Assembly: GCA_016235765.1 (NCBI GenBank)
Contig: JACRIZ010000018.1
Coordinates: 1 to 64,000 of the forward strand
Direction of reading: 5' to 3'
Length of the DNA stretch: 64,000 bases
Source of the DNA: Rhodocyclales bacterium
Lineage (GTDB): Bacteria; Pseudomonadota; Gammaproteobacteria; Burkholderiales; Rhodocyclaceae
Shown in pieces: positions 6,867-48,134 of this stretch. Both the position numbers and the translations under genes were made by a program. The notes under the pieces were generated by a model that saw nothing but the letters and a program-made list of their open reading frames with translations, ran no database searches and was not told where the DNA came from. The stretch's first letter is position 1. The number at the start of each line of letters is the position of its first letter.

Positions 6867-8828
6867 TCAGTCCGCCGCCAGGCGCTGCAGCAAGGTCAAC
6901 TGCTCCACCGCCTCCTGCATGGCGCCGATGCCCTTGGCCAGTTCCTCGAGACGCGCCAGGCTGGCGCTGATGTCGCCGCGCTCCTTGCTCGCGTCGGAAC
7001 TCATGCGCCCGATCTGATCCGCAGAGACGGTGCTCTTGCCCGCCATCTCCTCGGTCGTGGCCACGGTCTCCGTCGCCACCGCACGAATGCGGGAAATGGT
7101 ATTGACCGCCTCGTGGATGCTTTGCGCGGTCGCCTGCGCCTGATCCTTGGCCGATTGCGCCAGCTTGCGCACCTCGTCGGCCACCACTGCGAAACCGCGC
7201 CCCGCCTCGCCCGCCCGCGCCGCCTCGATGGCCGCGTTGAGCGCCAGCAGGTTGGTCTGGTCGGCAATGGCGCCGATACCGCCGGTGATCTTGCTGATGC
7301 CGTGCGAAATCCGCTCCAGATCGTCGAGTTCGCCGCCCAACCGGGTCTGCGCCGAGCGGGTCTGCGTTGCCGCATCGCTGATCGAGCGGATGCTGCGCTG
7401 CGCGACATCGAGCGTGTCGGCCTGATGCAGCGCGGCCTTCTCGAGCTGGGGCAGCGCCGTCAGCAGGGGCGTCACCGCTTGCTGGTAGTCGACCACGCGA
7501 CCGACCACGCTTGCCTGCATGCCGTGCAAGGCCTCGAAGCGCTTCAGGGCACGCTGGTCGTAGTGGCCGGCATAGGCCGCGTACTCGACCGGGAAGCGGG
7601 CCATCGCCTCGTTGCGGCTATCGAAGAAGGCCAGCGCGGAGAGCGTCTGGTTGATCGGCACGCCGAGGATCTCGCCGAAGGTCGAGAATCCCGCCGCCGG
7701 CACATCGTCGAAGAAACGGGCCTCGCCCAGCTTTGCGGCGTTGCCGACCCGGCGCAGCACGCAGTCGTTGAGCAGCACCGCGCTCGGCCGACCGTGGCGG
7801 GAGACGAACTGCTGCCACTCGTTGCGCGTCGCCGAAAGGAAATCCGTCGCCTTGAGCAGGTGCAGGCGATCGCCGAACTCCAGGTCGCAGAAGAACGCCA
7901 CGCGATCGGCTTGGATCGCCGCCACCGAGCGGATGAAATATTCGTCCTCCACCTTGACGGCGAAGGTCTTGCCGTCCAGGTGCCTGCCGACGTCGCCACG
8001 ATCGCAGCGCAGGTGCGCCGCCAGGACATCCAGTATCGGCTGCGGCCGACCGTCGGCACCGAACAGCGACGTGACGGTACGAGCCACCGGATCGGCGTCG
8101 GCGACCAGCCAGCTCTGGCTGGTCGGTTCGAAGCTCTGGCTCTTGAACGGCGCAAAGGACTTGCCTTCCGCCATCTGGCAGAAGATCAGCACCGCCTTGC
8201 CCTGCAGGATCGAGCCGCCGGCGCCGATAAAGGTACCGCTGAAGTCGAGCTTGCCGCCGGCGGAGCCGCCGATGGCCAGGCAGGGGAAACGGCCGCACTC
8301 GTACCAGGCCTGCATCAGGAAGCCTTCCGAGGCCGACAGTCCGTCACAGAACACCAGCGCAAAGGTCCGCTCCGCGGACAGCGGCATCGCCGGCGTCAAG
8401 CGCTCGAGCTCGCGCCGGATCGCCGCCACGCGCTGGCGGGCGGTGGTCGTGTCCTTCACGTGGAGGTCGACCGCATGCACTTCGTGGCGCGCGATCAGGC
8501 CCTGCGGCAGCCATAGCCAACTGCCCTGCCGGCCCTTCATATCGCAGTAGGTCGATGCGCCCGCCTGGCCGCACAGCGCCCCCGTTGACGAGATCGCAAG
8601 GATCGTGCGCCCGGGCGACGACAGGCGCTGCCAGTCGGCACTGACGCGCGAGAAGTCAGCTTCCGGCGGCACGAAGGCGAGCAGCAGGCCCGCCTCGGGG
8701 GCGAGCCCGAGCGCCTCGATACCGGTCGGCACTGCGGAACAATCGAAGACGCCGCTTGCCGGTCCGCTTGCCTTTGGCTCGGCGCGGCGCTCGGCGGCGC
8801 TGGCGCCGAACATCGAGAACAGTCCCAT
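6867..8828 (-). CDS. Soluble FIST-domain methyl-accepting chemotaxis protein
   Basis: A 653-residue cytoplasmic chemoreceptor. The N-terminal two thirds resemble FIST_N/FIST_C sensor domains ([18 protein letters not shown] is the typical FIST_C ending). The C-terminal third carries the MCP signalling hairpin tip around residues 520-555 ([20 protein letters not shown]). The ATG at 8828 is chosen over an ATG 33 bases upstream because AGGAGG stands at the right distance before it. No transmembrane helices. FIST domains are proposed to bind small ligands such as amino acids; the ligand here is unknown. Confidence 0.88.
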
Positions 8829-9697: not shown

Positions 9698-10714
9698 CTA
9701 GCCGCCCAGTTGCCACATCGGGCGGACTTCGGCGGGCCGGATGCCGGCCGCGAAACTATGTCCTGCCGGCTTGGCGACGACCGCGCTGCGGATCGCCGCT
9801 TCGAGGTCCGCATCGTCGCCCGCACGCAAGGCCGCGCGCAGGTCGACGTTGCTGCCGTGGCCCAGGCACAGCACCAGGCTCCCGGTGCAGGTCAGGCGCA
9901 GGCGGTTGCAGGTCGTGCAGAAGCCGTGGCTCATCGGCGCGATGAAGGCGACGCGCCGTCCGGTCTCCATCACCTGCCAGTAGCGTGCCGGGCCGCCGGT
10001 CTTGTAGGCGATCGGGATCAGCGTCCAGTGCTTGGACAGTTCGCCACGCACCGCGTCGAGCGGCACGTAGTGTTCCATCGAATTGCCCAAGGGCATCACT
10101 TCGATGTAGGCCATGTCGCAGCCCTGATCGCCGCACCAGCGCACCAACTCGTCGAATTCGTGGTCGTTGATGCCCGCCATCGCCACGGTGTTGATGCGCA
10201 CGGCGAGCCCCGCGGCGCGCGCCGCGCGGATGCCGGCCAGCACCAGGGGCAATTCGTCGCGCAGGGTGATGCGCTCGAAGTTCCAGCGATCCAGGCTGTC
10301 CAGGGACACGTTCACGCGGCGAACGCCGGCAGCAGCCAGGGCCGCGGCATGGCGGGCCAACTGCGTGCCGTTGGTGGTCAGAGTCAGTTCGTTCAGCGCC
10401 CCTACCGCAACATGCCGACCCAGTCGCTCGATCAGTTGTTCGATGCCCGGCCGCACCAGCGGCTCGCCCCCGGTGATGCGCAGCTTGCGCACGCCGAGCC
10501 GGACGAAGGCCGAGGCGACGCGATCCAGTTCCTCGAGACTCAGGATCTCGGCCTTGGGCAGGAAGCGCACGTCATCGCTCTTGCAGTAGAAGCAGCGGAG
10601 GTTGCAGCGATCGGTGACCGACATGCGCAGATAGGAAATGTGCCGGCCATACGCGTCGATGAGCGGCGGTTGCTGGTCGCGGTCGATTTCAATCCTGGAC
10701 AGGCGGTCGTTCAT
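9698..10714 (-). CDS. moaA: GTP 3',8-cyclase MoaA
   Basis: Radical SAM enzyme for the first step of molybdopterin synthesis (GTP to 3',8-cH2GTP). 338 residues. The N-terminal SAM cluster motif is CNLRCFYC, the C-terminal second [4Fe-4S] cluster motif is in CTTCNRLRLTCTG, and the protein ends in the required Gly-Gly. Its position between hypA and hypB is unusual; demand for molybdopterin by the two aldehyde oxidoreductases in the window is a likely reason. A palindrome shared with those operons lies 86 bases upstream. Confidence 0.95.
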   Translation of the reverse strand: MNDRLSRIEIDRDQQPPLIDAYGRHISYLRMSVTDRCNLRCFYCKSDDVRFLPKAEILSLEELDRVASAFVRLGVRKLRITGGEPLVRPGIEQLIERLGRHVAVGALNELTLTTNGTQLARHAAALAAAGVRRVNVSLDSLDRWNFERITLRDELPLVLAGIRAARAAGLAVRINTVAMAGINDHEFDELVRWCGDQGCDMAYIEVMPLGNSMEHYVPLDAVRGELSKHWTLIPIAYKTGGPARYWQVMETGRRVAFIAPMSHGFCTTCNRLRLTCTGSLVLCLGHGSNVDLRAALRAGDDADLEAAIRSAVVAKPAGHSFAAGIRPAEVRPMWQLGG

Positions 10715-10799: not shown

Positions 10800-10814
10800 T
10801 GTCATTTCGGGACA
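10800..10814. promoter_or_regulatory. Shared palindrome, site 1 (upstream of moaA)
   Basis: TGTCATTTCGGGACA, extended to GTGTCA...GGACAC; one mismatch from TGTCA-N5-TGACA. It overlaps the hypA stop codon and sits 86 bases before moaA. Confidence 0.55.
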
Positions 10815-11262: not shown

Positions 11263-11279
11263 TGTCACGAAACGAGACA
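11263..11279. promoter_or_regulatory. Shared palindrome, site 2 (between hypA and cooM)
   Basis: TGTCACGAAACGAGACA (one mismatch in the arms, 7-base spacer). It is equidistant from the two divergent genes: 90 bases from the hypA start and 89 from the cooM start, suggesting control of both. Confidence 0.6.
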
Positions 11280-11310: not shown

Positions 11311-11367
11311 GCCAAACGTCCCCAATTCCGATACTGGCATCGACAACGGAACCCAAGAGGGAAGACC

Positions 11368-23246: not shown

Positions 23247-25502
23247 GTGCCGACCGACATCCATTCCGAACCGCCATCGAATTCCGCTGAGCCCCGCTGG
23301 TGGGATGCCAGCCGCACGCCTGGGCTGGACGCCTTCGGCGCGCCCGTCCATTTCACCATCGACGGCCAGCCGGCCGAAGCGCCCGCTGGAGCCTCGCTGC
23401 TCAACGCGATCATTGCCAACGGCGTCTACGTACCTCACCTGTGCACGCACCCGGAGCTGCCCCCGGCCTGCCGGCGCGGCGATGGCGGCGGCTGCAACCT
23501 CTGCGCGGTGGAGACTTCGGACCGCCCGAACAAGGTCAGCCACGCCTGCAAGCTGGAGGTGACCGAGGGCGTGGCCGTGCGTACGACGCTGCCGCTGATC
23601 CGCATCGCCCGGCAGTCGGCGCTGGCGAAGATCATCGGCAACTATCCGCCGGAGGCCCGCGGCAGCGCCGGCTTCGAAGAAAGCGAACTGCACCGGGTCG
23701 CCGAGGTCGTCGGCATCCGCCCGAACATCCCGGCCTGTGAATCGCCTCGCCTGCCCGTGGTGAAGGACGAGCCGCTGTTCGACCGCGACTACAACCTCTG
23801 CATCGATTGCCGCCGCTGCCTGATCGCCTGCAACGACGTGCGCGGCGTCGGCTGCCTGGAAATCAAGAGCGTCGACACCCCGCTGGGGCCGCGTACCTGG
23901 GTCGGCACCATCGCGCCCACACTCGTCGAATCCGGCTGCAAGTTCTGCATGGCCTGCGTGGTCGTCTGCCCGAGCGGCGCGCTCGCCGAGCGCGAATCCG
24001 AACCGGCGAAGCGGGCCGACGTGTCCGTGCCCTGCAAGTCGGCCTGCCCGGCCGGCATCGACGCGGCGCGCTACGTGCAGCTCGCCGCCGAAGGCAGGTA
24101 CTCGGAAGCGGTCGCCGTGGTGCGCGAGAAGCTGCCCTTCCCCGGCATCCTCGGTCGCGCCTGCTACGCGCCCTGCGAGTCGGCCTGCCGCCGCGGCGCG
24201 GTGGACGAGTCGCTTTCCATCCGCGGCTTGAAGCGCATCGCCGACGACCACGACACCGGCCTGTGGCGCCAGTTCTCCGTGCAACTGCCGCCCTCGGGCA
24301 AGCGCGCCGCGATTGTCGGCGCCGGCCCGGCCGGGCTGACGGTGGCCTGGTACCTGGCCAAGAAGGGCCACACCGTCACTATCTTCGACGCCCTGCCCGC
24401 CGCCGGCGGCATGATCCGCTACGGCATTCCCGGCTACCGCGTGCCGGTCGACGTGCTCGACCGCGAAGTGGGCGAGGTGGCGAAGCTCGGCGTGCGCTTC
24501 AAGTTCGACACGCGCATCGAGAACCTCGACACGCTGTTCGCCGAGGGCTACGACGCGGTCTTCATCGGCATCGGCTGCCAGGGCGGCGATTCGCTGGGCA
24601 TCCCCGGCGACGACCTGCCGGGCGTCATCGACAGCCCGACCTTCCTGCGCGCGGTGAGCATGGGCCTGGTCAATTCGCGCGGCGGCGGCATCGACACCGG
24701 CGCCAAGGTGACGGTGATCGACAACAGCAAGGTGGCCGTGATCGGCGGCGGCAACGTCGCCGCCGACAACGCGCGCACCACGCGCCGATTCGGCGTCGAG
24801 GTGGACATGGTCTATCGCCGCACTGCGGAGGAAATGCCCATCCACGACCACGAACTCGAAGGCTGCCTCGACGAAGGCGTGAATGTGCGCTACCAGCTCG
24901 CGCCCAAGCGCATCGAACTCGGCGACGGCCAGACGCGCCTGAAGATCACCTACGCCCGCATGGTGGCGGGCGAGCCCGACGCCTCCGGCCGCCGCCGGCC
25001 GGTCGACTCCGGCGAGGAAGTCACCGAGGGCGTCGACCTCGTCATCGCGGCCATCGGCCAGCACGTGCAGAAGTTCGCCGGCTTCGGCGTAGCGACCGAC
25101 GCCAAGGGCCGCATCGTCGCCGACAAGGCAACGCTCGCCACCAGCCGCCCCGGCGTCTACGCCGGCGGCGACTGCGTGCTCGGCCCCTCGTCGCTGATCG
25201 AATCCGTGGCCCAGGGCCGCATCGCCGCCGCCGCCATGGACCGCCAGCTCGGCGGCGACGGCAACATCGAGGAAACGCTGCTGCCCGACGGCTGGCAGAC
25301 CTCGCCGCATCTCGGCCAGGACAAGGACTTCAACCGCCGCCCGCGCATCCTGCCGCCGCTGGTCGCGCCCGCCGAGCGCAAGGGCTGGACGGAAGTCGAG
25401 AGCCGCTTCAGCGACGCCGACGCCCGCGCCGAAGGCAGCCGCTGCCTGAAGTGCAACCTCGCGGCGGAGATGGCGCCGCCGGTGACGCCGCCCGCCGCTT
25501 GA
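23247..25502 (+). CDS. NuoG-type FeS / GltD-type flavin oxidoreductase fusion
   Basis: 751 residues. Domain order: [2Fe-2S] ferredoxin (about 30-105; CTHPELPPACRRG, GGCNLCAVE), a NuoG-like His/Cys FeS segment, a 2[4Fe-4S] domain (CIDCRRCLIACND, CKFCMACVVVCPSG), a GltD/DPYD-like FeS-helical domain (CKSACPAGIDAA, CYAPCESACRRG), then FAD (AIVGAGPAGLTVAWYLAKKG) and NAD(P) (AVIGGGNVAADNARTTRRFG) domains. Such proteins exchange electrons between NAD(P)H and low-potential ferredoxins or FeS oxidoreductases. Starts at GTG with GGAGA upstream. The neighbourhood suggests service to the aldehyde oxidoreductases or hydrogenase; the partner is inferred. Confidence 0.85.
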   Translation: MPTDIHSEPPSNSAEPRWWDASRTPGLDAFGAPVHFTIDGQPAEAPAGASLLNAIIANGVYVPHLCTHPELPPACRRGDGGGCNLCAVETSDRPNKVSHACKLEVTEGVAVRTTLPLIRIARQSALAKIIGNYPPEARGSAGFEESELHRVAEVVGIRPNIPACESPRLPVVKDEPLFDRDYNLCIDCRRCLIACNDVRGVGCLEIKSVDTPLGPRTWVGTIAPTLVESGCKFCMACVVVCPSGALAERESEPAKRADVSVPCKSACPAGIDAARYVQLAAEGRYSEAVAVVREKLPFPGILGRACYAPCESACRRGAVDESLSIRGLKRIADDHDTGLWRQFSVQLPPSGKRAAIVGAGPAGLTVAWYLAKKGHTVTIFDALPAAGGMIRYGIPGYRVPVDVLDREVGEVAKLGVRFKFDTRIENLDTLFAEGYDAVFIGIGCQGGDSLGIPGDDLPGVIDSPTFLRAVSMGLVNSRGGGIDTGAKVTVIDNSKVAVIGGGNVAADNARTTRRFGVEVDMVYRRTAEEMPIHDHELEGCLDEGVNVRYQLAPKRIELGDGQTRLKITYARMVAGEPDASGRRRPVDSGEEVTEGVDLVIAAIGQHVQKFAGFGVATDAKGRIVADKATLATSRPGVYAGGDCVLGPSSLIESVAQGRIAAAAMDRQLGGDGNIEETLLPDGWQTSPHLGQDKDFNRRPRILPPLVAPAERKGWTEVESRFSDADARAEGSRCLKCNLAAEMAPPVTPPAA

Positions 25503-25545: not shown

Positions 25546-25560
25546 TGTCATCGCGTGACA
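25546..25560. promoter_or_regulatory. Shared palindrome, site 3 (upstream of the ModA-like gene)
   Basis: TGTCATCGCGTGACA, perfect arms with 5-base spacer, extended to GTGTCA...TGACAC. It lies 92 bases before the ATG at 25652. Confidence 0.7.
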
Positions 25561-25651
25561 CTTCCACGGCCACGGGGCTCGGTTTCCCTTCCCGGCATGC
25601 GGACCTTGGTCGAGACTGAGGGGCATGACAACAGTGAATCCAGGGAGCGTC

Positions 25652-26407
25652 ATGACCATCCGCGTGTTTGCCGCAGGCAGCCTTCGGGCCGCGTTCGGCG
25701 ATCTGGCGGTCGCCTTCGCGGCGCTGCGGGCGGTGCCGGTCGAGCTGGTGTTCGGCCCCTCGGGCCTGTTGCGCGAGCGGCTGCTGGCGGGCGAGGCGGC
25801 TGACGTTTTCGCCTCGGCCAACATGGAGCATCCGCAGGCGCTGGCCTCGGCAGGGATGGCCGGGCCGGTGCGGTGCTTCGCGCGCAATCGGCTGTGCGCG
25901 CTGGCAGCGCCGCGGCTGCGCGTCAGCGGCGCGACGCTGGTCGAGCGCCTGCTGGACCCGGCCGTCCGGCTGGGCACCTCGACGCCGAAGGCGGACCCTT
26001 CGGGCGACTACGCCTTCGAGTTCTTCGCCCGCGCGGAGCGGCGCCACCCGGGCGCGCAGGCCGCACTTTGCGCCAAGGCCTTGCAGATCGTGGGCGGGCC
26101 GTCGTCGCCGGCCCCGCCGCCGGGCCGCAATCTGTATGCCAAGCTGATCGGGGACGGCGCCGCCGATATCTTCCTGACCTATTACAGCAACGCGGTGCAG
26201 GCGCTGCGGGAAGCGCCGGATCTGCAGATCGTGCCGATTCCGGACGACCTGGCGGTCGGGGCGGAGTTCGGCCTGACCTTGCTGGGCGAATGCGCCGCCA
26301 CTGAATTCGCCGATTTCTTGCTTTCCCCGGCCGGACAGGCGCTCGTGGTCCGCCAGGGCTTCTCGCCCGCCCAAGCTGCCGTCAAGTCTTTCCCGGTCGC
26401 GGCATAG
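25652..26407 (+). CDS. ModA-like molybdate/tungstate-binding protein without signal peptide
   Basis: 251 residues, type II periplasmic-binding fold of the ModA kind (FAAGSLRAAFGDLA at the start, then VELVFGPSGLLRERLLAGEAADVFASA, with segments shorter than family average). The start with GGGAG upstream at 25652 gives MTIRVFAAGS directly, with no hydrophobic leader; even the earlier ATG at 25625 adds none. It therefore should stay in the cytoplasm, and no permease or ATPase gene adjoins. A molybdate/tungstate store, sensor or cofactor-insertion helper is possible. Confidence 0.7.
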   Translation: MTIRVFAAGSLRAAFGDLAVAFAALRAVPVELVFGPSGLLRERLLAGEAADVFASANMEHPQALASAGMAGPVRCFARNRLCALAAPRLRVSGATLVERLLDPAVRLGTSTPKADPSGDYAFEFFARAERRHPGAQAALCAKALQIVGGPSSPAPPPGRNLYAKLIGDGAADIFLTYYSNAVQALREAPDLQIVPIPDDLAVGAEFGLTLLGECAATEFADFLLSPAGQALVVRQGFSPAQAAVKSFPVAA

Positions 26408-26412
26408 GCCAC

Positions 26413-26429
26413 TGTCACGAAACGTGACA
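26413..26429. promoter_or_regulatory. Shared palindrome, site 4 (distal, upstream of xdhC)
   Basis: TGTCACGAAACGTGACA, a perfect palindrome with a 7-base spacer, 144 bases before the xdhC start. Confidence 0.7.
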
Positions 26430-26468: not shown

Positions 26469-26483
26469 TGTCATCAGGTGACA
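26469..26483. promoter_or_regulatory. Shared palindrome, site 5 (proximal, upstream of xdhC)
   Basis: TGTCATCAGGTGACA, extended to GTGTCA...TGACAC. Perfect arms, 5-base spacer, 90 bases before xdhC. Confidence 0.7.
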
Positions 26484-26572: not shown

Positions 26573-27412
26573 ATGTTGGACATCTACGAAGAAATCGTCC
26601 GGATGCGGCAGGAAGGCCGGAGCTGCGCCCTGGCCACGATCGTCAACACGCAGGGCTCGATACCCTCGTTCGCCAGCGCCAAGATGCTGGTCCGCGACGA
26701 CGGTTCCATCTCTGGCACCGTCGGCGGCGGCGGCGCCGAGTACGAGGTGATCCAGGCGGCCCGCGAGGTCATCGACGAGGAAAAGCCGCGCACCGTCAAT
26801 TTCAATCTCAACAAGCGGCCCGGCGTGGATGCCGGCATGGTTTGCGGCGGCAGCCTGGAAATCTACGTCGAGCCCATCGTTGTCGCGCCGAAGCTCTACA
26901 TCTTCGGCGCCGGCCATGTCGGCCTGTCCACCTACCGGATCGCGCTGTCGGCCGGCTTCGAGGTGACCATGGTCGACGAACGCGAAGCCTTCGCCAACCG
27001 CGAACGCTACCCGAGCGCCAGGGGCATCGTCGTCGCCCCGTACGATGTAGCGTTGGCCGGACTGCATCCGCCCCCCGGCAGCTACGTCCTGATCTTCACC
27101 CCCAGCCACCAGAGCGACATGCAGGTGCTGCGCTGGGCCGTCGATACGCCGGCGCGCTACATCGGCATGATGGGCTCGAAGCGCAAGGTGGCCGGCATCT
27201 TCCACGAACTGCGGAAGGATGGCGTGAATTCGGAACGCTTCCGCGCGGTGCACGCGCCCGTCGGCCTGGACATCGGTGCCCAGCCGCCGGAAGAGATCGC
27301 CATTTCCGTGGTGGCGGAGATGATCGCCCTCCGGCGGCGCTGCGCCGCCGCCCTGCCCCATTTGCGCATGGAACCCGCGCAGCCGGACGTCCGGTTGCGC
27401 GAGGTCGGCTGA
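26573..27412 (+). CDS. xdhC: XdhC-family molybdenum cofactor maturation protein
   Basis: 279 residues. XdhC/CoxI N-terminal domain (EGRSCALATIVNTQGSIP, SGTVGGGGAEYEV) followed by the XdhC Rossmann domain (LYIFGAGHVGLSTYRIAL). XdhC proteins bind molybdenum cofactor and help its sulfuration and insertion into xanthine-oxidase family enzymes. It starts after GAGGAGAAGGCC and lies directly before the molybdenum aldehyde oxidoreductase, its probable client. Confidence 0.92.
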   Translation: MLDIYEEIVRMRQEGRSCALATIVNTQGSIPSFASAKMLVRDDGSISGTVGGGGAEYEVIQAAREVIDEEKPRTVNFNLNKRPGVDAGMVCGGSLEIYVEPIVVAPKLYIFGAGHVGLSTYRIALSAGFEVTMVDEREAFANRERYPSARGIVVAPYDVALAGLHPPPGSYVLIFTPSHQSDMQVLRWAVDTPARYIGMMGSKRKVAGIFHELRKDGVNSERFRAVHAPVGLDIGAQPPEEIAISVVAEMIALRRRCAAALPHLRMEPAQPDVRLREVG

Positions 27413-27484
27413 CCCCGTTTTCAAACCGTAGCGGCAACTTCCTCAATCCGAGCACCCAAGGTGCATTTCAAGAAGGAGCACGTC

Positions 27485-30244
27485 ATGAAGCGAATCATCA
27501 TCAACGTCAACGGCGTCGATCGGCCGATCGTCACCGATACGACCAAGACCCTCGCGGACGTCCTGCGCGACAACCTCATGCTGACCGGCTGCAAGGTCTG
27601 CTGCGACAACGGCCAGTGCGGCACCTGTACCGTGCTCATCGACCAGAAGCCCATCAAGGCGTGCATGGTGCCCGTATCCAAGTACGCCGACACCGGCGCG
27701 AAGATCGTCACCATCGAAGGCATCGGCACGCCCGAGAACCTGCACCCGCTGCAGGTCACCTGGATGCACCACGGCGGCGCCCAGTGCGGCGTGTGTACGC
27801 CCGGCTTCATCATGTCGGCCAAGTCGCTGCTGGACCAGAACAAGAACCCGTCGCGCGAGGAAGTGCGCACCTGGTTCAACCGCAACCGCAACGCCTGCCG
27901 CTGCACCGGCTACAAGCCGCTCACCGATGCGGTGATCGACGCCGCCGCCATCATGCGCGGTGAGAAGAAGCGCGAGGAATTCATGCCGAAGGTGCCGGAT
28001 AACGGCTCCATCATCGGCTCCAAGTACCATCGTCCGTCCGCCGTCGCCAAGGTCACCGGCACCTGGGACTTCGGCGCCGACGTCGTCCAGCACATGCCGC
28101 CCGACACGCTGCACCTGGCGCTGGTGCAGACCAAGGTCTCGCACGCCAACATCAAGGGCATCGATGCCGCCGAAGCCGAGAAGATGCCGGGCGTGGTCAA
28201 GGTCATCACCTGGAAGGACATCAAGGGCAAGAACGCGATCACCGGCCTGATCACCTTCCCGACCAACAAGGGCGACGGATGGGATCGTCCGATCCTCTGC
28301 AAGGACAAGGTCTTCCAGTTCGGCGATGCGATCGCCGTCGTCGCCGCCGACACGGTGGAACATGCCCGCGCCGCCGCCGAGAAAGTCGTGGTCGACCTCG
28401 AAGTGCTGCCCGCCTACATGGACGGCTGGGCCGCCCAGGAACCGGACGCGCTGGAAATCCACCCCGGCGTGCCGAACGTCTATTACGAGCAGGGCGTGAT
28501 CAAGGGCGAGGACACCGCGCCGATCATGAAGACCGCCGCCGCCGTGGTCGAAGCCAAGACCCTGTGCTCGCGCCAGCCCCACCTGCACCTCGAACCGGAC
28601 TGCGGTTGCGCCTACATCGACGACGACGGCGTGCTGACCATCCAGTCGAAGTCCATCGGCATCCATCTGCACCATGCCATGATCTGCCCGGGCCTCGGCG
28701 TCGAGCCCGAGAAGCTGCGCATCGTCCAGAACGGCGCCGGCGGCACCTTCGGCTACAAGTTCAGCCCGACCATCGAAGCCATCCTCGGCGCGGCTTGCCT
28801 CGCCGTCAAGCGCCCGGTGTCGCTGGTCTATACCCAGTACCAGAACATTACCTACACCGGCAAGCGTTCGCCCGGCTACGTGGAAACCAAGCTGGCCGCC
28901 GACAAGACCGGCAAGCTGCTCGGCATGGAAACCAACTGGTGGATCGACCACGGTCCCTACTCCGAATTCGGCGACCTGCTGACCACCCGCCAGGCGCAAT
29001 TCACGGGCGCCGGCTACGACATCCCGAACATCCGCGGCAAGGGCAAGACGGTTTGCACCAACCATGCCTGGGGTTCGGCCTTCCGCGCCTACGGTTCGCC
29101 GCAGGCCTTCCTGTCCTCGGAAACCGCGATGGACATGCTGGCCGAAAAGCTGAACATGGACCCGCTGGAGCTGCGCCTGAAGAACGCCTACCGCCCCGGC
29201 GCCACCACGCCAACCGGCCAGGTGCCGGAAGTGTTCGTGGTCGACAAGCTGCTGGAGATGATGAAGCCGAAGTGGGAAGAAGCCAAGAAACGCTGCAAGG
29301 CATTCAACGTTCCCGGCAAGCAGCGCGGCGTCGGCCTCTCGGTCGGCATCTACGGTTCCGGCCTGGACGGCCCGGACAGTGCCGGCGCGGCGGTCGAACT
29401 GACCGCGACGGGCGTCAAGGTCTTCGACGCCTGGGAAGACCACGGCCAGGGCGCCGACCTGGGCACGCTGACCTTCGCCCATGAAACGCTGAAGCCGCTG
29501 GGCATCAAGCCGGAGCAGATCGAACTGGTCATGAACACCACCGATCAGCCGAACAGCGGCCCGGCCGGCGGCAGCCGCTGCAACGTCATGGTCGGCAACG
29601 CCATCAAGGTGAGCTGCGAGATGCTGCTCAACGCCATGCGCAAGCCCAACGGCACCTACCGGACCTACAAGGAGATGGTCGAGGAGAAGATTCCGCTGCG
29701 CTACGACGGCAAGTGGACGGTGCAGAACACCAAGGAGATCGACCCGGTCACCGGCCAGGGCAGCCCCTTCGCCATCTACATGTACGAAGTGTTCATGCCG
29801 GAAGTGGAAGTCGATCTCGAAACCGGCAAGGTGACGGTGGTAAAGTTCACGACCGCTGCCGACGTCGGCACCATCATCAACCGCGCCACGGTCGACGGCC
29901 AGATCTACGGCGGCCTCGCCCAGGGCATCGGGCTGGCGCTGACCGAGGACTTCGACGACCTCAAGAAGCACGTCAACCTGCTCGACTGCGGCTTGCCCTA
30001 TCCGCGCGACATTCCGGACGACATGGAGATCATGTATCTGGAAACGCCGCGGCCCCAGGGTCCATACGGCGCGGCAGGCGTCGGCGAAGCACCGCTGACG
30101 GCGCCCCATCCGGCCATCCTCAACGCCATCTACAACGCCTGCGGCGTGCGCATCCTCAAGGTGCCCGCGCTGCCGGAACTGGTGAAGAAGGGGCTGGACC
30201 TCAAGGCGGCCGGCAAGCCGGCCATCATCCCTGCTCGTAGTTGA
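27485..30244 (+). CDS. mop: Molybdenum aldehyde oxidoreductase, MOP type
   Basis: 919 residues, single-chain xanthine-oxidase family enzyme without a FAD domain, very similar along its whole length to Desulfovibrio gigas aldehyde oxidoreductase (about 907 residues). Plant-type [2Fe-2S] cluster: C40, C45, C48, C60. Second [2Fe-2S] cluster: C101, C104, C138, C140. Molybdenum domains follow, with the catalytic glutamate near 868 in GVGEAPLT. Oxidises aldehydes to acids and passes electrons to a ferredoxin or flavodoxin-like acceptor. The ATG at 27485 has AAGGAG upstream. It lacks the CoxL active-site loop, so it is not an aerobic CO dehydrogenase. Confidence 0.95.
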   Translation: MKRIIINVNGVDRPIVTDTTKTLADVLRDNLMLTGCKVCCDNGQCGTCTVLIDQKPIKACMVPVSKYADTGAKIVTIEGIGTPENLHPLQVTWMHHGGAQCGVCTPGFIMSAKSLLDQNKNPSREEVRTWFNRNRNACRCTGYKPLTDAVIDAAAIMRGEKKREEFMPKVPDNGSIIGSKYHRPSAVAKVTGTWDFGADVVQHMPPDTLHLALVQTKVSHANIKGIDAAEAEKMPGVVKVITWKDIKGKNAITGLITFPTNKGDGWDRPILCKDKVFQFGDAIAVVAADTVEHARAAAEKVVVDLEVLPAYMDGWAAQEPDALEIHPGVPNVYYEQGVIKGEDTAPIMKTAAAVVEAKTLCSRQPHLHLEPDCGCAYIDDDGVLTIQSKSIGIHLHHAMICPGLGVEPEKLRIVQNGAGGTFGYKFSPTIEAILGAACLAVKRPVSLVYTQYQNITYTGKRSPGYVETKLAADKTGKLLGMETNWWIDHGPYSEFGDLLTTRQAQFTGAGYDIPNIRGKGKTVCTNHAWGSAFRAYGSPQAFLSSETAMDMLAEKLNMDPLELRLKNAYRPGATTPTGQVPEVFVVDKLLEMMKPKWEEAKKRCKAFNVPGKQRGVGLSVGIYGSGLDGPDSAGAAVELTATGVKVFDAWEDHGQGADLGTLTFAHETLKPLGIKPEQIELVMNTTDQPNSGPAGGSRCNVMVGNAIKVSCEMLLNAMRKPNGTYRTYKEMVEEKIPLRYDGKWTVQNTKEIDPVTGQGSPFAIYMYEVFMPEVEVDLETGKVTVVKFTTAADVGTIINRATVDGQIYGGLAQGIGLALTEDFDDLKKHVNLLDCGLPYPRDIPDDMEIMYLETPRPQGPYGAAGVGEAPLTAPHPAILNAIYNACGVRILKVPALPELVKKGLDLKAAGKPAIIPARS

Positions 30245-40653: not shown

Positions 40654-40935
40654 TCAGCGGTTCTTGAAGCCGAGCAGGAAGCGGTGCGGTCCGGGCACCC
40701 CGGGCGGCACCAGGGCGACGCGGTCGCCGGGATGGACGACGGCGATATCCGCCGCGTAGGCCTTGCGATTGACGAACATGACCTCGACCTTGTCCTGTGC
40801 GACGCCGAGTTGGTCGAGCAGTTGCGGACCGGTGAGTTCGCCGGGGATTTCCAGCGCACGCGGGTTCGGCCACTGCCGTTCGCGGAAGAAATCGGCCATG
40901 CCCATGTAGGCGTGCAGTTCGATCGGATTCGTCAT
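40654..40935 (-). CDS. MoaD/ThiS-like beta-grasp protein lacking the terminal Gly-Gly
   Basis: 93 residues with a ubiquitin-like profile and the HPGDRVALVPPGVPG segment of MoaD proteins. Instead of ending in Gly-Gly it continues to LLGFKNR, so it cannot form the usual C-terminal thiocarboxylate unless processed. ATG at 40935, one base after the stop of the CCG gene, with AAGGAG upstream. A canonical MoaD is encoded at 44688 in the same neighbourhood. Confidence 0.72.
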   Translation of the reverse strand: MTNPIELHAYMGMADFFRERQWPNPRALEIPGELTGPQLLDQLGVAQDKVEVMFVNRKAYAADIAVVHPGDRVALVPPGVPGPHRFLLGFKNR

Positions 40936-40936
40936 C

Positions 40937-42376
40937 TCATTTCTCCTTCGCGGCCTGATAGGCGGCATTCAGGATTTCGACCGGATGCGCCACGGGCTGC
41001 GGCAGCATCTGGTTGAACTGTAACCGACAACTCAGGCAGTCGGTGAGCAGCTTTTCGGGCGCGGCCTTCTCCACCTTGCGCATCAGGCGGCGGCCGATGG
41101 CCACCGAGGTCGGATGGAACTTCTTCTTGAAGCCCATGATGCCGCCCAGACCGCAGCAATCGAGCGGTTCACCGACGCGGCCGGTGGTCGCACCGGGCAG
41201 CAGCGCCATCAGTTTCTGCCAGGGCTGGCCGATGTCCTGCTCGCGCTGGTGGCAGGGCGCAAAGTAGGCCATGCGTTCCGGCACGGCGCCGAAGCGGCGG
41301 TCGAGTTTTCCCTCGGCATCCAGCCGCAGCAGGTATTCGCCGAGGTCGTAGGTGCGGCTGGCGATGCGCAGGCGCTGCATGCCGTCGAAGGCGCCGAAGT
41401 AGCCGCGGTCGCGCATCAGGCCGTTCCGGACGAAGCGCAGCATGGAAGGCTGGGTGGCGCGCTCGAACATCGGATCGCTGCGACCGTTGAAGGCGAACTC
41501 CTCGCGGCGCAGGCGCTCGCCCATGCGCACCAGATCGCCGCCTTCCGCGTGTGCCGCGCTTTCGACGCTGGCGCGGTACCCAGGTGAAGTCAGCGCATCG
41601 GCCGGCAGCACCGACTTGTAGAAGTAGCCGCAGGTCGGGCAGGAGCAGACGATGTCGTAGCCCGCGTCGATCACGCGCGTGAGTTCGTCGATGTTGAAGC
41701 CCGCGGTGCGGTGGGTGAAGTCGCGATCGCCTTCCAGCATGGTCGGCATGCCACAGCACTTCTGCGGCGGCACGTAGACGGCGATACCGTTCCTTTCCAG
41801 CACCTCGACCGTTGCTTGCGCCACCTGCGGGAAGAGATAGCGCGCCGTGCAACCGGTGAAGTAGGCGACCTTGGGGCCGTCGCCGACCGGTTCTTCGTGC
41901 AGGCCGCGCTTCCTGGCCCAGATATCGAAGGACTGGCGCGGGAAGACCGGCAGCTTGCGCTCGGGGTGGATGCCGATGACGCGCTTGATGCCGCGGCCGA
42001 TGGGGCCGTCGGCGAGCAGTGCATTGGTGAGGCGCGGCGCCAGGCCGGCTAGTTTCGATTGCAGGCGCACGTCCTCGAGGACGCGGATCACCTTCGGCAG
42101 ACCGTCGCGCGCGACAAAACCGTCCTTGGCCTGGCGCACCCAAGTACGGATCTCGACGCAGGGACAGATGCCGCAGAGGTTGCATAAATCGGTCAACTTC
42201 TCCATCTCGACGTTCGTGATGGCGCGGCCGCCGCGCTTCTCGCGATCGGACATGCGGAACAGGCGCCGGAAGAACAGGCAGGACGATTCCTTCAGGTAGT
42301 CGCGGCACCAATCGCAGTTGGCGCAGCGATCGACCGCCTGGCGGACGAAGCTTTCGGGCTTTGCTTGGGGGGACAT
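40937..42376 (-). CDS. CCG-domain iron-sulfur oxidoreductase next to AOR (GlpC/HdrD-like)
   Basis: 479 residues. N-terminal cysteines RCANCDWCRDYL and the CNLCGICPC region look like [4Fe-4S] sites; two CCG (cysteine-rich) domains follow: FTGCTARYL...KCCGMPT...SCPTCGYFY, and FAPCHQREQ...DCCGLGG...DCLSCRLQ. Heterodisulfide-reductase-like proteins of this kind pass electrons to quinones or other FeS proteins. Divergent from the ferredoxin/AOR operon, it may carry AOR electrons in place of the FAD subunit (AorC) of Aromatoleum. No membrane helix seen. Confidence 0.85.
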   Translation of the reverse strand: MSPQAKPESFVRQAVDRCANCDWCRDYLKESSCLFFRRLFRMSDREKRGGRAITNVEMEKLTDLCNLCGICPCVEIRTWVRQAKDGFVARDGLPKVIRVLEDVRLQSKLAGLAPRLTNALLADGPIGRGIKRVIGIHPERKLPVFPRQSFDIWARKRGLHEEPVGDGPKVAYFTGCTARYLFPQVAQATVEVLERNGIAVYVPPQKCCGMPTMLEGDRDFTHRTAGFNIDELTRVIDAGYDIVCSCPTCGYFYKSVLPADALTSPGYRASVESAAHAEGGDLVRMGERLRREEFAFNGRSDPMFERATQPSMLRFVRNGLMRDRGYFGAFDGMQRLRIASRTYDLGEYLLRLDAEGKLDRRFGAVPERMAYFAPCHQREQDIGQPWQKLMALLPGATTGRVGEPLDCCGLGGIMGFKKKFHPTSVAIGRRLMRKVEKAAPEKLLTDCLSCRLQFNQMLPQPVAHPVEILNAAYQAAKEK

Positions 42377-42480: not shown

Positions 42481-42495
42481 TGTCAATCCGTGACA
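42481..42495. promoter_or_regulatory. Shared palindrome, site 6 (between the CCG gene and the AOR operon)
   Basis: TGTCAATCCGTGACA, perfect arms with 5-base spacer. Exactly central: 105 bases from the CCG start and 104 from the ferredoxin start. Confidence 0.7.
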
Positions 42496-42598
42496 GGTCG
42501 ATCACCCGGAGCCGGGTTTTCGTTGTTACCGCGACCCGCCATTTCCATACTGCGCTCACGTAGTCCCGAACATCTTTCAATTCATCCAGGAGTACATC

Positions 42599-42790
42599 AT
42601 GGCCTACAAGATTGTCCCCGAACTCTGCAACGGCTGCGCGGCGTGCGAATCGGAATGCCCGACCCGCGCCATCAGCCACGTCGAGAAGCTCTACACCATC
42701 GACCCGGAAAAGTGTGTGCAGTGCGAAGGCACTTACGACAGCCCGATGTGCGCGCAACTCTGCAACACCGACGCCTGCGTGCCGGCCTGA
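42599..42790 (+). CDS. Small ferredoxin, AorA-like
   Basis: 63 residues, 2[4Fe-4S] type: CNGCAACESECP and CVQCEGTYDSPMCAQLC with a longer second loop, ending CVPA. Probably receives electrons from the tungsten AOR encoded next. CCAGGAG precedes the ATG. Confidence 0.88.
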   Translation: MAYKIVPELCNGCAACESECPTRAISHVEKLYTIDPEKCVQCEGTYDSPMCAQLCNTDACVPA

Positions 42791-42851: not shown

Positions 42852-44582
42852 ATGGACCGTATCGTTAGAGTCAACATGTCGGATCTGACCACCCGCGTCG
42901 AGCCCGTACCCGCAGCCTGGGTCGGATTGGGCGGTCGAGCCCTGACCTCCACCGTCGTTGCCGCCGAAGTGCCGCCCACCTGCCACGCGCTCGGCCCCAA
43001 CAACAAACTGGTATTCGCTCCCGGCCTGCTTTCCGGCACGGCCGCCGCCAACTCGGGCCGCATTTCCTGCGGCGCCAAGAGCCCGCTCACCGGCGGCATC
43101 AAGGAATCCAACGCCGGCGGCACGGCCGCCAAGATGCTGGCCAAGCTCGGCATCGCCGCGCTGGTCGTCGAAGGCCAGCCCGCCGCAGACAAGTGGTACA
43201 GCGTACACGTCGCCAAGGATGCCATCACCATCCAGGAAGAAAAGGACACGGTCGGCACCGGCAACTACTGCCTGGTCAATCAGGTCCAGGCCCGCTTCGG
43301 CAAGCCCGTCGGCGTCATGTCGGTCGGCCCTGCCGGCGAAATGAAGATGCTCTCGGCCAACATCTCGGTGGCCGACCCCGAATCGCACATCCGCAGCATC
43401 GGCCGCGGCGGCCTCGGCGCGGTGATGGGCTCCAAGAAGCTCAAGTTCATTTCCATCGACGATACCGGCACGCCGCCGGTAATGCCGAAGGAACCGGCCA
43501 AGTTCAAGGAAGCCGCCAAGATTTTCGCCCAGACCCTGCTCGACCACCCGGTCAGCGGCCAAGGCCTGCCGACCTACGGCACCAACGTGCTGGTCAACAT
43601 CCTGCACGAAGCCGGCGGCTTGCCGACCCGCAACTTCACCAGCGGCCAGTACGCGGCGCACGACAAGATCTCGGGCGAAACCATGCACGCCACCATCGTC
43701 GCGCGCGGCGGCATGCCGACCCACGGCTGCCATCCGGGTTGCCAGATCCAGTGCTCGCAGATCTACAACGACAAGGACGGCAAGTACCTGACCTCGGGCT
43801 TCGAATACGAGACCATCTGGGGCATGGGCGCCGATTGCTGCATCGAGGACCTCGACGACATCGCCACCGCCGACCATGTGATGGACGACATCGGCGTCGA
43901 TAGCATCGAAACCGCGGTGATGTTCGGCGTCGCCATGGAAGCCGGCGTGCTGCCTTTCGGCGACGGCAAGGGCGTCGTGCGCATGTTGACCGAAGAGATC
44001 GGCAAGGGCACCCCGCTCGGCCGTATTCTCGGCGGCGGTGCGGCCAACGTCGGTCGCGTCTATGGCATCACCCGCGTACCGGTGGTCAAGAACCAGGGCA
44101 TCCCGGCCTACGACCCGCGCGCGGTCAAGGGCATCGGCGTCACCTACGCGATGTCGACCATGGGCGCCGACCATACCTCCGGCTACGCGGTGGCGACCAA
44201 CATCCTGTCCGTCGGCGGCCACGTCGATCCGCTCAAGAAGGAAGGCCAGATCGAGCTGGCGCGCAACCTCAACATCGCCACGGCGGCCATCGACTCGACC
44301 GGCATGTGCCTGTTCATCGCCTTCCCGGCACTGGACATCCCGGCCTGCCTGACGTCCTTGATCGACATGATCAACGCCCGCTTCGGCATCGCCCTCTCCG
44401 GCGACGACGTGACGGCGCTGGGCAAGTCGGTGCTGAAGACGGAGCACGCCTTCAACATCGCCGCGGGCCTGACCCGGGAACACGACCGGCTGCCTGAGTT
44501 CTTCAGCCTCGAGGCCCTGCCGCCGCACAACGTGGTCTGGGACATCACGCCGGAAGAACTGGATTCCTACTGGAATTTCTGA
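42852..44582 (+). CDS. aor: Tungsten-dependent aldehyde:ferredoxin oxidoreductase, large subunit
   Basis: 576 residues, slightly shorter than typical AOR (about 605). N-terminal cofactor domain with LSGTAAANSGR and GAKSPLTGG; the [4Fe-4S] cysteines are in THGCHPGCQIQCSQIY (about 300) with a fourth in DSTGMCLF (about 485). AOR enzymes hold a bis-pyranopterin tungsten (rarely Mo) and oxidise aldehydes to acids or, at low potential, reduce acids. Upstream ferredoxin and downstream terminator define a short operon. Confidence 0.92.
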   Translation: MDRIVRVNMSDLTTRVEPVPAAWVGLGGRALTSTVVAAEVPPTCHALGPNNKLVFAPGLLSGTAAANSGRISCGAKSPLTGGIKESNAGGTAAKMLAKLGIAALVVEGQPAADKWYSVHVAKDAITIQEEKDTVGTGNYCLVNQVQARFGKPVGVMSVGPAGEMKMLSANISVADPESHIRSIGRGGLGAVMGSKKLKFISIDDTGTPPVMPKEPAKFKEAAKIFAQTLLDHPVSGQGLPTYGTNVLVNILHEAGGLPTRNFTSGQYAAHDKISGETMHATIVARGGMPTHGCHPGCQIQCSQIYNDKDGKYLTSGFEYETIWGMGADCCIEDLDDIATADHVMDDIGVDSIETAVMFGVAMEAGVLPFGDGKGVVRMLTEEIGKGTPLGRILGGGAANVGRVYGITRVPVVKNQGIPAYDPRAVKGIGVTYAMSTMGADHTSGYAVATNILSVGGHVDPLKKEGQIELARNLNIATAAIDSTGMCLFIAFPALDIPACLTSLIDMINARFGIALSGDDVTALGKSVLKTEHAFNIAAGLTREHDRLPEFFSLEALPPHNVVWDITPEELDSYWNF

Positions 44583-44687: not shown

Positions 44688-44936
44688 ATGAAGATCGCCC
44701 TCCGCCTCTACGCCACCCTGCGGGACTATCTGCCCGACGGCCACGACACCGGCGTCACGCTCGACCTCCCGGACGGCGCAACGATCCCCGACGCGCTGGC
44801 GGTACTCGGCGTGCCGCTCGCGCTTGCCCACATCATCATGATCCAGGGCCGCCGCGTGTTGCCGCCCGACGTCGCGACCCGGCAGCTTGTGGATGGCGAG
44901 GAGCTCGCAGTCTTCCCCGCCATCGGCGGTGGCTGA
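44688..44936 (+). CDS. moaD: MoaD-type molybdopterin synthase small subunit
   Basis: 82 residues of beta-grasp fold ending FPAIGGG, so it keeps the C-terminal Gly-Gly needed for adenylation and thiocarboxylation. Supplies sulfur for the dithiolene of molybdopterin; next to aor it may be dedicated to the tungsten cofactor, as AorD-like proteins are in Aromatoleum. Starts 25 bases after the terminator, so may need its own promoter or read-through. Confidence 0.85.
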   Translation: MKIALRLYATLRDYLPDGHDTGVTLDLPDGATIPDALAVLGVPLALAHIIMIQGRRVLPPDVATRQLVDGEELAVFPAIGGG

Positions 44937-44970: not shown

Positions 44971-46146
44971 GTGATCGTCAGGGAACTCAAGCCGGGTATC
45001 CACGCGCTGGTCGCCATCGACTGGGACCGCAAGCTTTTCGATGAGCTGGTGCCGCTGCCCGAGGGCACCAGTTACAACGCCTACGTGGTCGTCGGCAGCG
45101 AGAAGACCGCCCTGATCGACTCGGTGCATCCGTCGATGACCGGCGACTTCCTGGCGGCCCTCAAGGGACTCGGCCTCGAGCGCGTCGACTACATCGTGTC
45201 CAATCACGCCGAACCGGACCATTCCGGCTCGATCCCGGCGGTGCTGGCCGAGTACCCCGAGGCCAAGGTGCTGGCCAACGTCAAGTGCCGCAGCCTGCTG
45301 ATCGCCAGCCACGGCCTGAAACCGGACGCATTCACGCTCATCAAGGACCAGCAGACGGTCTCGCTGGGCGACAGGACGCTGCGTTTCATGTGGGTGCCCT
45401 GGGTGCATTGGCCCGACACGACCTTCACCTACGTCGAGGAGGACCGCGTCCTGTTCTCCTGCGACTTCCTCGGCGCCCATCTCGCGACCTCGGATCTTTA
45501 CGCCGACGACGAGGCGCGCGTCGAACGCGCCGCGCGCATGTACTACGCCGAGATCATGATGCCCTACCGGCCGCACGTGAAGAAATACGTCGACCTGTTG
45601 GCGGCCATGGCCATCGACATGATCGGTCCCAGCCACGGCCCGGTCTACCGGCGCCCCGAATTCATCCTGTCGCACTATCGCGCCTGGGCCGGCGACGCGA
45701 CGCGCCCGGCCGTGGTGATTCCCTATCTCTCGATGTACGAGAGCACGGCGAAGATGGTGGCCTACCTGATCGATCGCCTGATGGCGAAAGGCCTGTCGGT
45801 CCAGCCCTTCAACGTCGTCGATCTCGACAGCGGACGCTTCGCAGCCGCGCTGGTCGAGGCCTCGACGGTCGTCTTCGGCTCGCCGACGGTACTCGACGGG
45901 CCGCATCCGGCCATGGCGGCAGCCGCCTACCTCGTCAATGCCCTGAAGCCCAAGACCCGCTACGGCGGCATCATCGGCTCCTACGGCTGGGGCAACGACG
46001 CCATGCAGAACAGCCTGGCCAAGATGCTGCCCAATCTGGCCGTCGAATGGTTTGCGCCCGTCGTCGCCGGCGGCGTCCCCAAACACGAGGCACTTGCCGA
46101 ACTCGACCGCCTGGCCGAAGATATCGTCCGCGCGAATGCCGCGTAG
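44971..46146 (+). CDS. Flavodiiron protein (A-type flavoprotein)
   Basis: 391 residues, beta-lactamase-fold diiron domain plus flavodoxin domain. Diiron ligands are visible: NHAEPDHSGS (HxExDH), VHWPD, CDFLGAHL and PSHGPVY. The flavodoxin part has IPYLSMYESTAKMV and GSYGWGNDAM. Reduces O2 to water and/or NO to N2O using rubredoxin-like donors, a plausible guard for the oxygen-sensitive AOR. Starts at GTG with AAGGAAAGGCAGGGGG upstream. Confidence 0.92.
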   Translation: MIVRELKPGIHALVAIDWDRKLFDELVPLPEGTSYNAYVVVGSEKTALIDSVHPSMTGDFLAALKGLGLERVDYIVSNHAEPDHSGSIPAVLAEYPEAKVLANVKCRSLLIASHGLKPDAFTLIKDQQTVSLGDRTLRFMWVPWVHWPDTTFTYVEEDRVLFSCDFLGAHLATSDLYADDEARVERAARMYYAEIMMPYRPHVKKYVDLLAAMAIDMIGPSHGPVYRRPEFILSHYRAWAGDATRPAVVIPYLSMYESTAKMVAYLIDRLMAKGLSVQPFNVVDLDSGRFAAALVEASTVVFGSPTVLDGPHPAMAAAAYLVNALKPKTRYGGIIGSYGWGNDAMQNSLAKMLPNLAVEWFAPVVAGGVPKHEALAELDRLAEDIVRANAA

Positions 46147-46232: not shown

Positions 46233-48134
46233 ATGCCCACACCCAAGCCCGACCGTGCCTCGCTGCGCCGCGCCCGCGACCTGATGCTGGAACGCGGCGA
46301 GTTGCCGCTCGGCTATCTGGTCAGCACGCTGCTGGCGCGTTCCTGGCGACGCAGCGTGGACGCCGGGCTGGCCCCCGACGGCCGCCTGACCGACGCCTGT
46401 CGCCTGGACGAGTCGGAACTGGCGCGCACCCGGGAACAACGCTACGAGCTGATCGCCCATGCGCGCCCGGTGATGGAATACCTGCACACGCAGACCCGCG
46501 ACTCGGGCAGCATGGTGACCCTGGCGGACGAGAAGGGCGTGTTGCTGCAGGCCCTCGGCGATCCCGATTTCCTGACCCGCGCGGAGCGCGTCGCGCTCTC
46601 GCCCGGCGCTTCGTGGCACGAGCGGCACCGCGGCACCAATGCGATCGGCACGGCGCTGGCCGAGGCACGGCCGCTGGTCGTCCATGGCGGCGAGCATTTC
46701 CTGGAACGCAACGGCTTCCTGTCCTGCGCCGCCGCGCCGCTGGTCGCGCCCGACGGCAAACTGCTCGGCGTGCTCGACATCTCCGGCGACGAACGGCAGC
46801 ACCACCCGCACACCTTCGGCCTGGTCCGGGCCGCGGCCCAGATGGTCGAGAACCGGCTGTTCGATGCCTACCATGCGCGCAACCTGCGCATCCGCTTCCA
46901 TACCATGGCCGAGGGCATCGGCACCTTCTCGGAAGGCATCGCCGCGCTCTCGGAAGACGGCTGGCTGATCGGCGCCAACCAGGCCGGCCTGGTCTTCCTG
47001 GGCCTGCGCGCCGGCGATCTCAACGCCACGCCGCTGTCGCGCATCCTGCCGCTGCGCTTCGCGGACCTGCTCGACTGGAACCGGCGCCGTCCCGGCGAAC
47101 CCATGCTGGTCACGCTGGCCGACGGCGAGCGGCTGTTCATGCGCATCGAGCCGCCCATGCGGGCAGCGCCCGCCGCCCCGACCAGCGAACGGCGCGTTCG
47201 CGCCCGGGATGCGCTCGATGCGCTGGATACCGGCGACGAACGCCTGGCCACGGCAATCGAAAAGGCCCACAAGCTGGTCGGCAAGCCCATCCCGCTGCTG
47301 CTGCAGGGCGAGCCCGGCGTCGGCAAGGAGCGCTTCGCCGGCGCCGTGCACGCGTCCGGCCCGCGCCACGACGGGCCGTTCGTCACCGTACATTGCGCCG
47401 GCCTGCTGCCGAACCTGGTCGAGGCGGAACTGTTCGGCTACGCGCCGACGCTTTGCCGCGACGGCGAACCGGGCCACGTCCGCGAGGCCCATGGCGGTAC
47501 CCTGTTCATGGACGAAATCGAGCTTCTGCCCCTGCCCGCCCAGAAGCAGTTGCTCAAGGTCATGCTGGACCATCGCGTCACGCCCATCGGCGCGACCGAA
47601 ACGGTGCCGATCGATATCGTCCTGATCTGCGCCACCCACAGCAACCTGAAAGCGGCCATCGAAGCCGGCGAGTTCGACGCGGACTTCTACTACCGCATCA
47701 ACGGCGTCACGCTGCAACTGGCACCGCTGCGCGAACGCCAGGACTTCCCGGCACTGGTGGCGCGGCTGCTGGAAGAACTGGCGCCGGGGCGCGCCATCAG
47801 CCTCGACCCCGCCGTCGCCACCGCCTTCGCCGAATATTCCTGGCCCGGCAACCTGCGCCAGCTCAACAATGCCTTGCGCGCCGCCATCGCGCTGCTCGAC
47901 GAAGCCGAAACCCGCATCGGCTGGAGCCACCTGCCCGACGATATCGCCGAAGAGCTGCGCTGGCGCGTCCCCCCCGCCGCCACCAGCGCCGGCGAGGAGA
48001 CCGAGAACCTGCGCGAGCTGTCGCAGGCCACGATCGAACGGGCCATCGCGCTGAGCCGCGGCAACATGTCCGAGGCGGCGCGGCGGCTCGGCATCAGCCG
48101 CAACACCCTCTATCGCCGGCTGCGCGAAAAATAG
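46233..48134 (+). CDS. AcoR-like AAA+ transcription activator lacking the GAFTGA motif
   Basis: 633 residues. N-terminal AcoR-type GAF region (about 50-210, with [18 protein letters not shown]), a PAS-like stretch (about 220-310), AAA+ domain (about 325-550) and C-terminal Fis-type HTH ([20 protein letters not shown] then [12 protein letters not shown]). Walker A GEPGVGKE and Walker B LFMDEIE are present. The sigma-54-contacting GAFTGA loop is deleted: LFGYAP runs on as [11 protein letters not shown]. Such activators (DhaR, TyrR, Rhodobacter NtrC) act on sigma-70. Candidate regulator of the palindrome regulon. Confidence 0.88.

Follow-up and report, generated by a model that had tools for sequence, protein, structure and literature searches.

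How does a regulator that is built like a sigma-54 enhancer-binding protein, but that has lost the loop for contacting sigma-54, control its genes, and which genes are these? The question is raised by the last gene of an aldehyde oxidoreductase (aor) cluster in the window, by which we mean the whole stretch of 64,000 nucleotides analyzed here. Its product is laid out as follows:

46233-48134, + strand: AcoR-like regulator without GAFTGA, 633 aa, ATG start (ORF and Pfam)
46461-46859, + strand: GAF (sensor) domain, residues 77-209 (Pfam)
46884-47150, + strand: PAS-like domain, residues about 218-306 (secondary structure predicted by AlphaFold2)
47307-47330, + strand: Walker A, GEPGVGKE; its Lys is invariant in both clades discussed below
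47391-47393, + strand: residue 387, the switch-asparagine position; His in this protein
47436-47474, + strand: L1 region without GAFTGA, residues 402-414, after ELFGYAP
47502-47519, + strand: Walker B, LFMDEI, residues 424-429; retained here and lost in four other loop-less lineages
47676-47678, + strand: residue 482, Arg to Asp (alignment)
48009-48128, + strand: Fis-type HTH, residues 593-632 (Pfam)

All Pfam matches exceeded their cut-offs (GAF, 77-209; Sigma54_activat, 335-494; AAA lid, 501-574; HTH_8, 593-632), and the protein passed the bEBP family test with 149.2 bits against a threshold of 20.2 for PF00158 and 48 against 22 for the Fis-type HTH. The AlphaFold2 model has a mean pLDDT of 88.7, and the closest solved folds are bEBP AAA+ domains. 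The PAS-like unit at about 218-306 has no Pfam match and is defined by predicted secondary structure only. The protein did not reach the curated cut-offs for DhaR (NF008485; 256.1 bits, cut-off 551), TyrR (NF008085; 162.8 bits, cut-off 576), or NtrC (TIGR01818; 182.5 bits, cut-off 558.6), and its N terminus is a GAF domain.

The sequence-only reading had found no GAFTGA after LFGYAP, and alignment to relatives bears this out. In the GAFTGA paralog encoded in the same genome (G000:C44; 62% identical, with a similar HTH), L1 reads ELFGYVPGAFTGARREG; the window regulator is a net four residues shorter there, and the motif is gone. Ten more loop-less proteins, including those of the cultured Propionivibrio dicarboxylicus DSM 5885 and P. 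soli SG131, come from independent assemblies, which rules out a sequencing or assembly error as the cause of the missing loop. In a maximum-likelihood tree, all 11 loop-less proteins form one clade (99/98 support) nested inside GAFTGA regulators, and this clade persists when the motif columns are dropped (96) and when the AAA region is removed (94). A separate origin for the most divergent member, L096, was considered and rejected, since the tree shows one origin. The loop-less proteins are thus a single clade that lost the loop from GAFTGA-bearing ancestors. Their GAFTGA relatives are regulators flanking exaC, an acetaldehyde dehydrogenase gene, in Rhodocyclaceae; several of the genomes in this comparison are metagenome assemblies. 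The nearest named relatives of the host put it in this family too. These relatives, G000:C44 included, share with the window regulator the domain order and about 50-64% overall identity, and their GAF domains are 74-83% identical to its own in most cases (63% in one).

The loss of the loop is accompanied by erosion of the ATPase across the whole clade, as a comparison of 11 loop-less with 31 GAFTGA proteins shows. Position 482, which we take to be the second conserved arginine of the ATPase signature, is Arg in 31/31 GAFTGA proteins but Asp in 10 and Ser in 1 of the 11 loop-less proteins; it lies six residues upstream of the arginine finger R488, in a segment where FRxDLYYR of the GAFTGA relatives has become FDADFYYR in the window regulator. 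Likewise, DEIGDMP has become DEIELLP. At residue 387 the window regulator and its nearest relative carry His, while the other nine loop-less proteins and all 31 GAFTGA proteins carry Asn. Parsimony mapping on the tree places losses of the Walker B acid pair in four loop-less lineages, compared with none among the 31 GAFTGA relatives. Both clades retain the arginine finger, the sensor residues, and the Walker A Lys. Alignment to published motifs (PMC7175178) matches R488 with R299 of NtrC1 and R168 of PspF, and residue 387 with the switch asparagine.

An earlier description of the ATPase and HTH as intact therefore holds only in part: Walker A, the Walker B string LFMDEIE, and the Fis-type HTH are present, but the full signature (Walker A, Walker B, both arginines, and switch Asn) is incomplete in the window regulator, with Asp at 482 and His at 387, DEIGDMP has decayed, and Walker B is broken in four related lineages. 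The AAA domain diverges faster than the GAF domain in the loop-less clade (AAA/GAF divergence ratio, 1.95, versus 1.05 for the GAFTGA relatives), whereas HTH identity is higher (86% versus 63%). Because Walker A is invariant, the hydrolysis motifs are eroded, and the AAA domain diverges faster than GAF, these data suggest that the clade has retained ATP binding but not hydrolysis, which is probably no longer under selection.

The regulator's likely targets are marked by a palindrome, TGTCA-N5-TGACA, which occurs in three exact copies in the window against 0.01 expected. These copies precede the ferredoxin-AOR operon, modA, and xdhC with the molybdopterin-dependent AOR (Mo-AOR), and related sites lie upstream of moaA and between hypA and a hydrogenase operon. 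The relevant features of the window are as follows (sites are given without strand):

9698-10714, - strand: moaA (TIGR02666, above cut-off)
10800-10814: moaA operator, differing from the palindrome at one position; -10 AATACT at 10747-10742 (- strand), 60 bp away
11263-11279: 17-bp operator TGTCACGAAACGAGACA, flanked by hypA (-) and the hydrogenase operon (+)
25546-25560: operator TGTCATCGCGTGACA upstream of modA; weak -10 GAGACT at 25612-25617
25625-26407, + strand: modA-like molybdate-binding protein (NCBIfam, above cut-off)
26413-26429: a further operator-like palindrome before xdhC, TGTCACGAAACGTGACA, 17 bp
26469-26483: operator TGTCATCAGGTGACA preceding xdhC and Mo-AOR, with a weak promoter at +61
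26573-27412, + strand: XdhC-family maturation factor
27461-30244, + strand: molybdopterin-dependent aldehyde oxidoreductase (NF045668, 1542.6 bits against a cut-off of 1100)
42481-42495: operator TGTCAATCCGTGACA of the ferredoxin-AOR operon (palindrome search)
42523-42528, + strand: -35 TTGTTA of the aor promoter (promoter scan)
42546-42551, + strand: -10 hexamer CATACT of the aor promoter; distance to the operator center, 58 bp
42599-42790, + strand: ferredoxin-like protein, encoded first in the aor operon
42852-44582, + strand: tungsten-type aldehyde oxidoreductase catalytic subunit (AFOR_N and AFOR_C)
44688-44936, + strand: MoaD-like protein
44971-46146, + strand: flavodiiron-type protein, between the MoaD-like gene and the regulator

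Several further observations concern these neighborhoods. The palindrome TGTCACGAAACGTGACA lies 55 bp upstream (center to center) of the 15-bp xdhC operator and has a copy in a related genome (fen_999, L075). A 751-aa FAD/2Fe-2S/4Fe-4S pyridine-nucleotide oxidoreductase is encoded at 23247-25502 of the window, apart from aor, whereas in L045 and L039 the regulator and the MoaD or flavodiiron protein have a similar gene between them; it looks as if AOR exchanges its electron-acceptor module (compare 23247-25502 and 44971-46146 of the window). A protein of about 95-105 aa with the motif IELHAFMGLADLFRERQW.NP recurs beside AOR and Moco genes in loop-less genomes (window 40654-40968, - strand; L045 1734-2033; L047 13730-14044; L048 13001-13345; L049 8895-9176; L113 6727-7008), and the two members that were searched had no Pfam match. 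Elsewhere in the genome of the window, a fourth exact palindrome (L071 7627; G000:C123:12126) lies upstream of cstA, with a sigma-70-like promoter at +58; this site would tie peptide/pyruvate uptake to aldehyde metabolism.

In other loop-less genomes, the palindrome precedes ferredoxin-AOR, moaA, xdhC, hypA/hydrogenase, and moeB-moaC-moeA-mogA (gene names from NCBIfam and Pfam; moeA scores below its full-length cut-offs). The aor operator is conserved in L038, L039, L045, and L114, and the moeB-moaC-moeA-mogA operon with its palindrome directly adjoins the regulator in L046-L048. One loop-less genome, G124, has no site matching the core pattern. The operator is also common to the two sister clades, as it occupies the gap separating the regulator gene from exaC at four GAFTGA loci (G177, G218, G113 with one mismatch, and G103). 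The exact 15-bp site is absent near the other GAFTGA exaC regulators compared, including paralogs of the same genus, and two of them (G002 and G037) have nearby a 17-bp form, TGTCCC-N5-GGGACA (L004 about 3174-3190; L033 about 7967-7983), which suggests that the operators of paralogs have diverged.

Across 200 genomes of the family, the operator core occurs in 9 of the 23 that encode the regulator family and in 5 of the 177 that do not (Fisher, 1e-6). This count used the core TGTCANYYCGTGACA, since exact counts were too noisy, with most genomes holding 0-3 by chance. Sites in G082, G217, and G138 were set aside as targets, not being near the regulator or Mo genes and apparently due to chance. 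From the shared operators, the linkage, and the sister clade, we infer that the loop-less regulator binds the palindrome. That this protein is the likely controller of the palindrome regulon, as had been proposed from the window, is thereby strengthened, in particular by the palindrome beside exaC of the GAFTGA sisters and by its co-occurrence with the family.

The promoters at these sites differ in class between the two clades. When scored for GG-N10-GC spacing, the exaC promoters of GAFTGA regulators have -24/-12 scores of 10.4-17.5 in 12 of 12 cases, whereas no -24/-12 element was found at any of 21 loop-less targets, all of which score 7.3 or below (Mann-Whitney P, 1e-6). The initial impression that most palindromes in the window lack such an element was thus too cautious. 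At the four GAFTGA loci with the 15-bp operator (G177, G218, G113, and G103), the -24 element lies 102-105 bp from the operator center. At loop-less targets, a -10 hexamer (CATACT, GATACT, AATACT, or TACAAA) starts 57-61 bp from it instead. In the case of TGTCACGAAACGAGACA, the start lies 59 bp from the center both for TACAAA (11212-11207, -) and for GATACT (11330-11335, +), a divergent layout that recurs in three orthologous hypA/hydrogenase loci.

For sigma-70-like promoters at +57-61, the observed sum was reached by 0 of 1,000 shuffles, both for 17 targets and for a subset of 11 operons picked to lower relatedness, although these figures, like the binomial ones, overstate independence because the targets are partly related by descent. 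In an extended set, the best promoter was at +57-61 in 20 of 24 targets; among the genomes in this set are P. dicarboxylicus and G130, in which Walker B of the regulator is broken. The scoring consensus for -10 is that of E. coli, the modA and xdhC promoters are weak, and -35 elements are mostly poor across loop-less targets. Loop-less targets thus lack -24/-12 elements and have -35/-10 promoters at a fixed spacing. Together with the -24/-12 elements of the exaC sister promoters, this argues, at the sequence level, for the sigma-70 mechanism that the missing GAFTGA had led the sequence-only reading to expect. At L041, an AOR homolog that is 55% identical has a GAFTGA regulator nearby and a strong -24/-12 element, and this single case suggests that sigma dependence goes with the regulator and not with the enzyme. 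The genome of the window itself encodes rpoN. It also holds two matches to the sigma-54 DNA-binding domain (G000:C72:12561-13022 and G000:C26:12668-13048), one of them in a short frame of 129 aa.

We consider it probable (roughly 0.78) that the loop-less protein arose when a sigma-54 enhancer-binding protein lost GAFTGA, and that it activates a Mo/W aldehyde-oxidation regulon independently of sigma-54, in a class-I-like manner. It would be an aldehyde-responsive regulator of the AcoR/ExaC type that would bind TGTCA-N5-TGACA and activate sigma-70 promoters from a site centered about 69-73 bp upstream of the start, a position obtained by placing the start of the -10 element at -12. An oligomer bound to ligand and ATP may recruit sigma-70 polymerase from the operator in a class I manner, most likely by direct contact, with the AAA+ domain kept for nucleotide-dependent assembly and ATP hydrolysis and the power stroke no longer needed. 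The predicted regulon comprises W-AOR, Mo-AOR, ModA, MoaA, MoeB/MoaC/MoeA/MogA, and hydrogenase/HypA. The signal is probably an aldehyde or alcohol, given that GAF is the best-conserved domain between the clades and that both clades control aldehyde oxidation. As with binding, we infer the ligand, activation rather than repression, and the contact with polymerase from sequence. A fuller scenario, to which we lean with some reserve, is a sigma-factor switch after one duplication: sensor and operator would have been kept and the loop lost, and in about seven operons sigma-70 promoters at one helical distance (operator center, -69 to -73) would have replaced sigma-54 promoters at a distance of 102-105 bp. 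The AAA+ ring would have become an ATP-binding scaffold whose hydrolysis machinery decays in parallel lineages.

The palindrome might belong to an unrelated transcription factor, with the loop-less protein doing something else. A global regulator could read palindromes near Mo genes, and the 17-bp form present near some GAFTGA paralogs is not the same as the 15-bp one. Yet four GAFTGA sisters have the same site between exaC and the regulator gene, the site also occurs beside the moeB operon neighboring the regulator, and operator and regulator family co-occur, all of which makes this explanation unlikely. The protein could also act at sigma-70 promoters as a repressor or dual regulator. TyrR both activates and represses. 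Caulobacter NtrC also does both (PMC10274813). An operator centered at about -70, outside the polymerase core site, and the mostly poor -35 elements fit activation, however, and we regard predominant or partial repression as quite improbable.

The coexistence of the loop-less protein with the similar paralog G000:C44 might point to an antagonist that forms mixed inactive hexamers with it or competes for its operator. We rejected this model and hold it to be very improbable: the promoters at loop-less operators have no -24/-12 element and hence no sigma-54 event to block, the 15-bp site is absent at the exaC promoter of the same genome, and the operons linked to the protein carry AOR and Moco genes. 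That the protein is simply a decaying, non-functional enhancer-binding protein would account for the eroded AAA+ motifs but is scarcely credible, as the frame is open and conserved across several genera, the HTH is more constrained than in the GAFTGA relatives, and the target architecture is maintained.

As an activator of sigma-70 promoters, the loop-less protein would join a mechanistic group rather than a single family. Sigma-70 regulators without GAFTGA, such as TyrR, DhaR, and Rhodobacter NtrC, are already known. The motif is lost in TyrR, DhaR, HupR, VpsR, and YplP, and sigma-70 dependence has been reported for the first three and proposed for VpsR and YplP (PMC3162934); the window regulator likewise lacks the sigma-54 contact loop but has different targets. 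By the tree it descends from GAFTGA proteins with loss of the loop, and its targets carry predicted -35/-10 promoters, as in this group. In contrast, the GAFTGA exaC regulators have the loop, the FRxD arginine, and Walker B and act at targets with -24/-12 elements. The NtrC proteins of Rhodobacter capsulatus and Caulobacter have GAFTGA deleted and regulate sigma-70 promoters (PMC10274813) but, unlike the window regulator, are response regulators of nitrogen genes. R. capsulatus NtrC requires ATP binding and not hydrolysis, whereas Caulobacter NtrC needs the hydrolysis residues (PMC10274813), and the loop-less clade has lost Walker B repeatedly. Clostridiales AorR, an enhancer-binding-type regulator of aor-moaD, is predicted to be sigma-54 dependent, with TGT/ACA half-sites 10-12 bp apart (PMC6615313); the window operators are TGT-N9-ACA, and neither GAFTGA nor -24/-12 elements were found, so that the window system does not match AorR.

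The literature that we searched, with most subscription papers outside its scope, holds no earlier description of the loop-less clade, which appears to be new, as does its promoter architecture. Nor did it describe a regulator of W/Mo aldehyde oxidation in Betaproteobacteria, for which a likely regulator, DNA motif, and regulon can now be named. What is known of how sigma-54 activators turn into sigma-70 activators comes mostly from isolated end points. In the present case, the two states occur side by side in sister clades, at times within a single genome; they share the DNA site and have closely related sensors, so that the minimal change that separates them would be directly testable.
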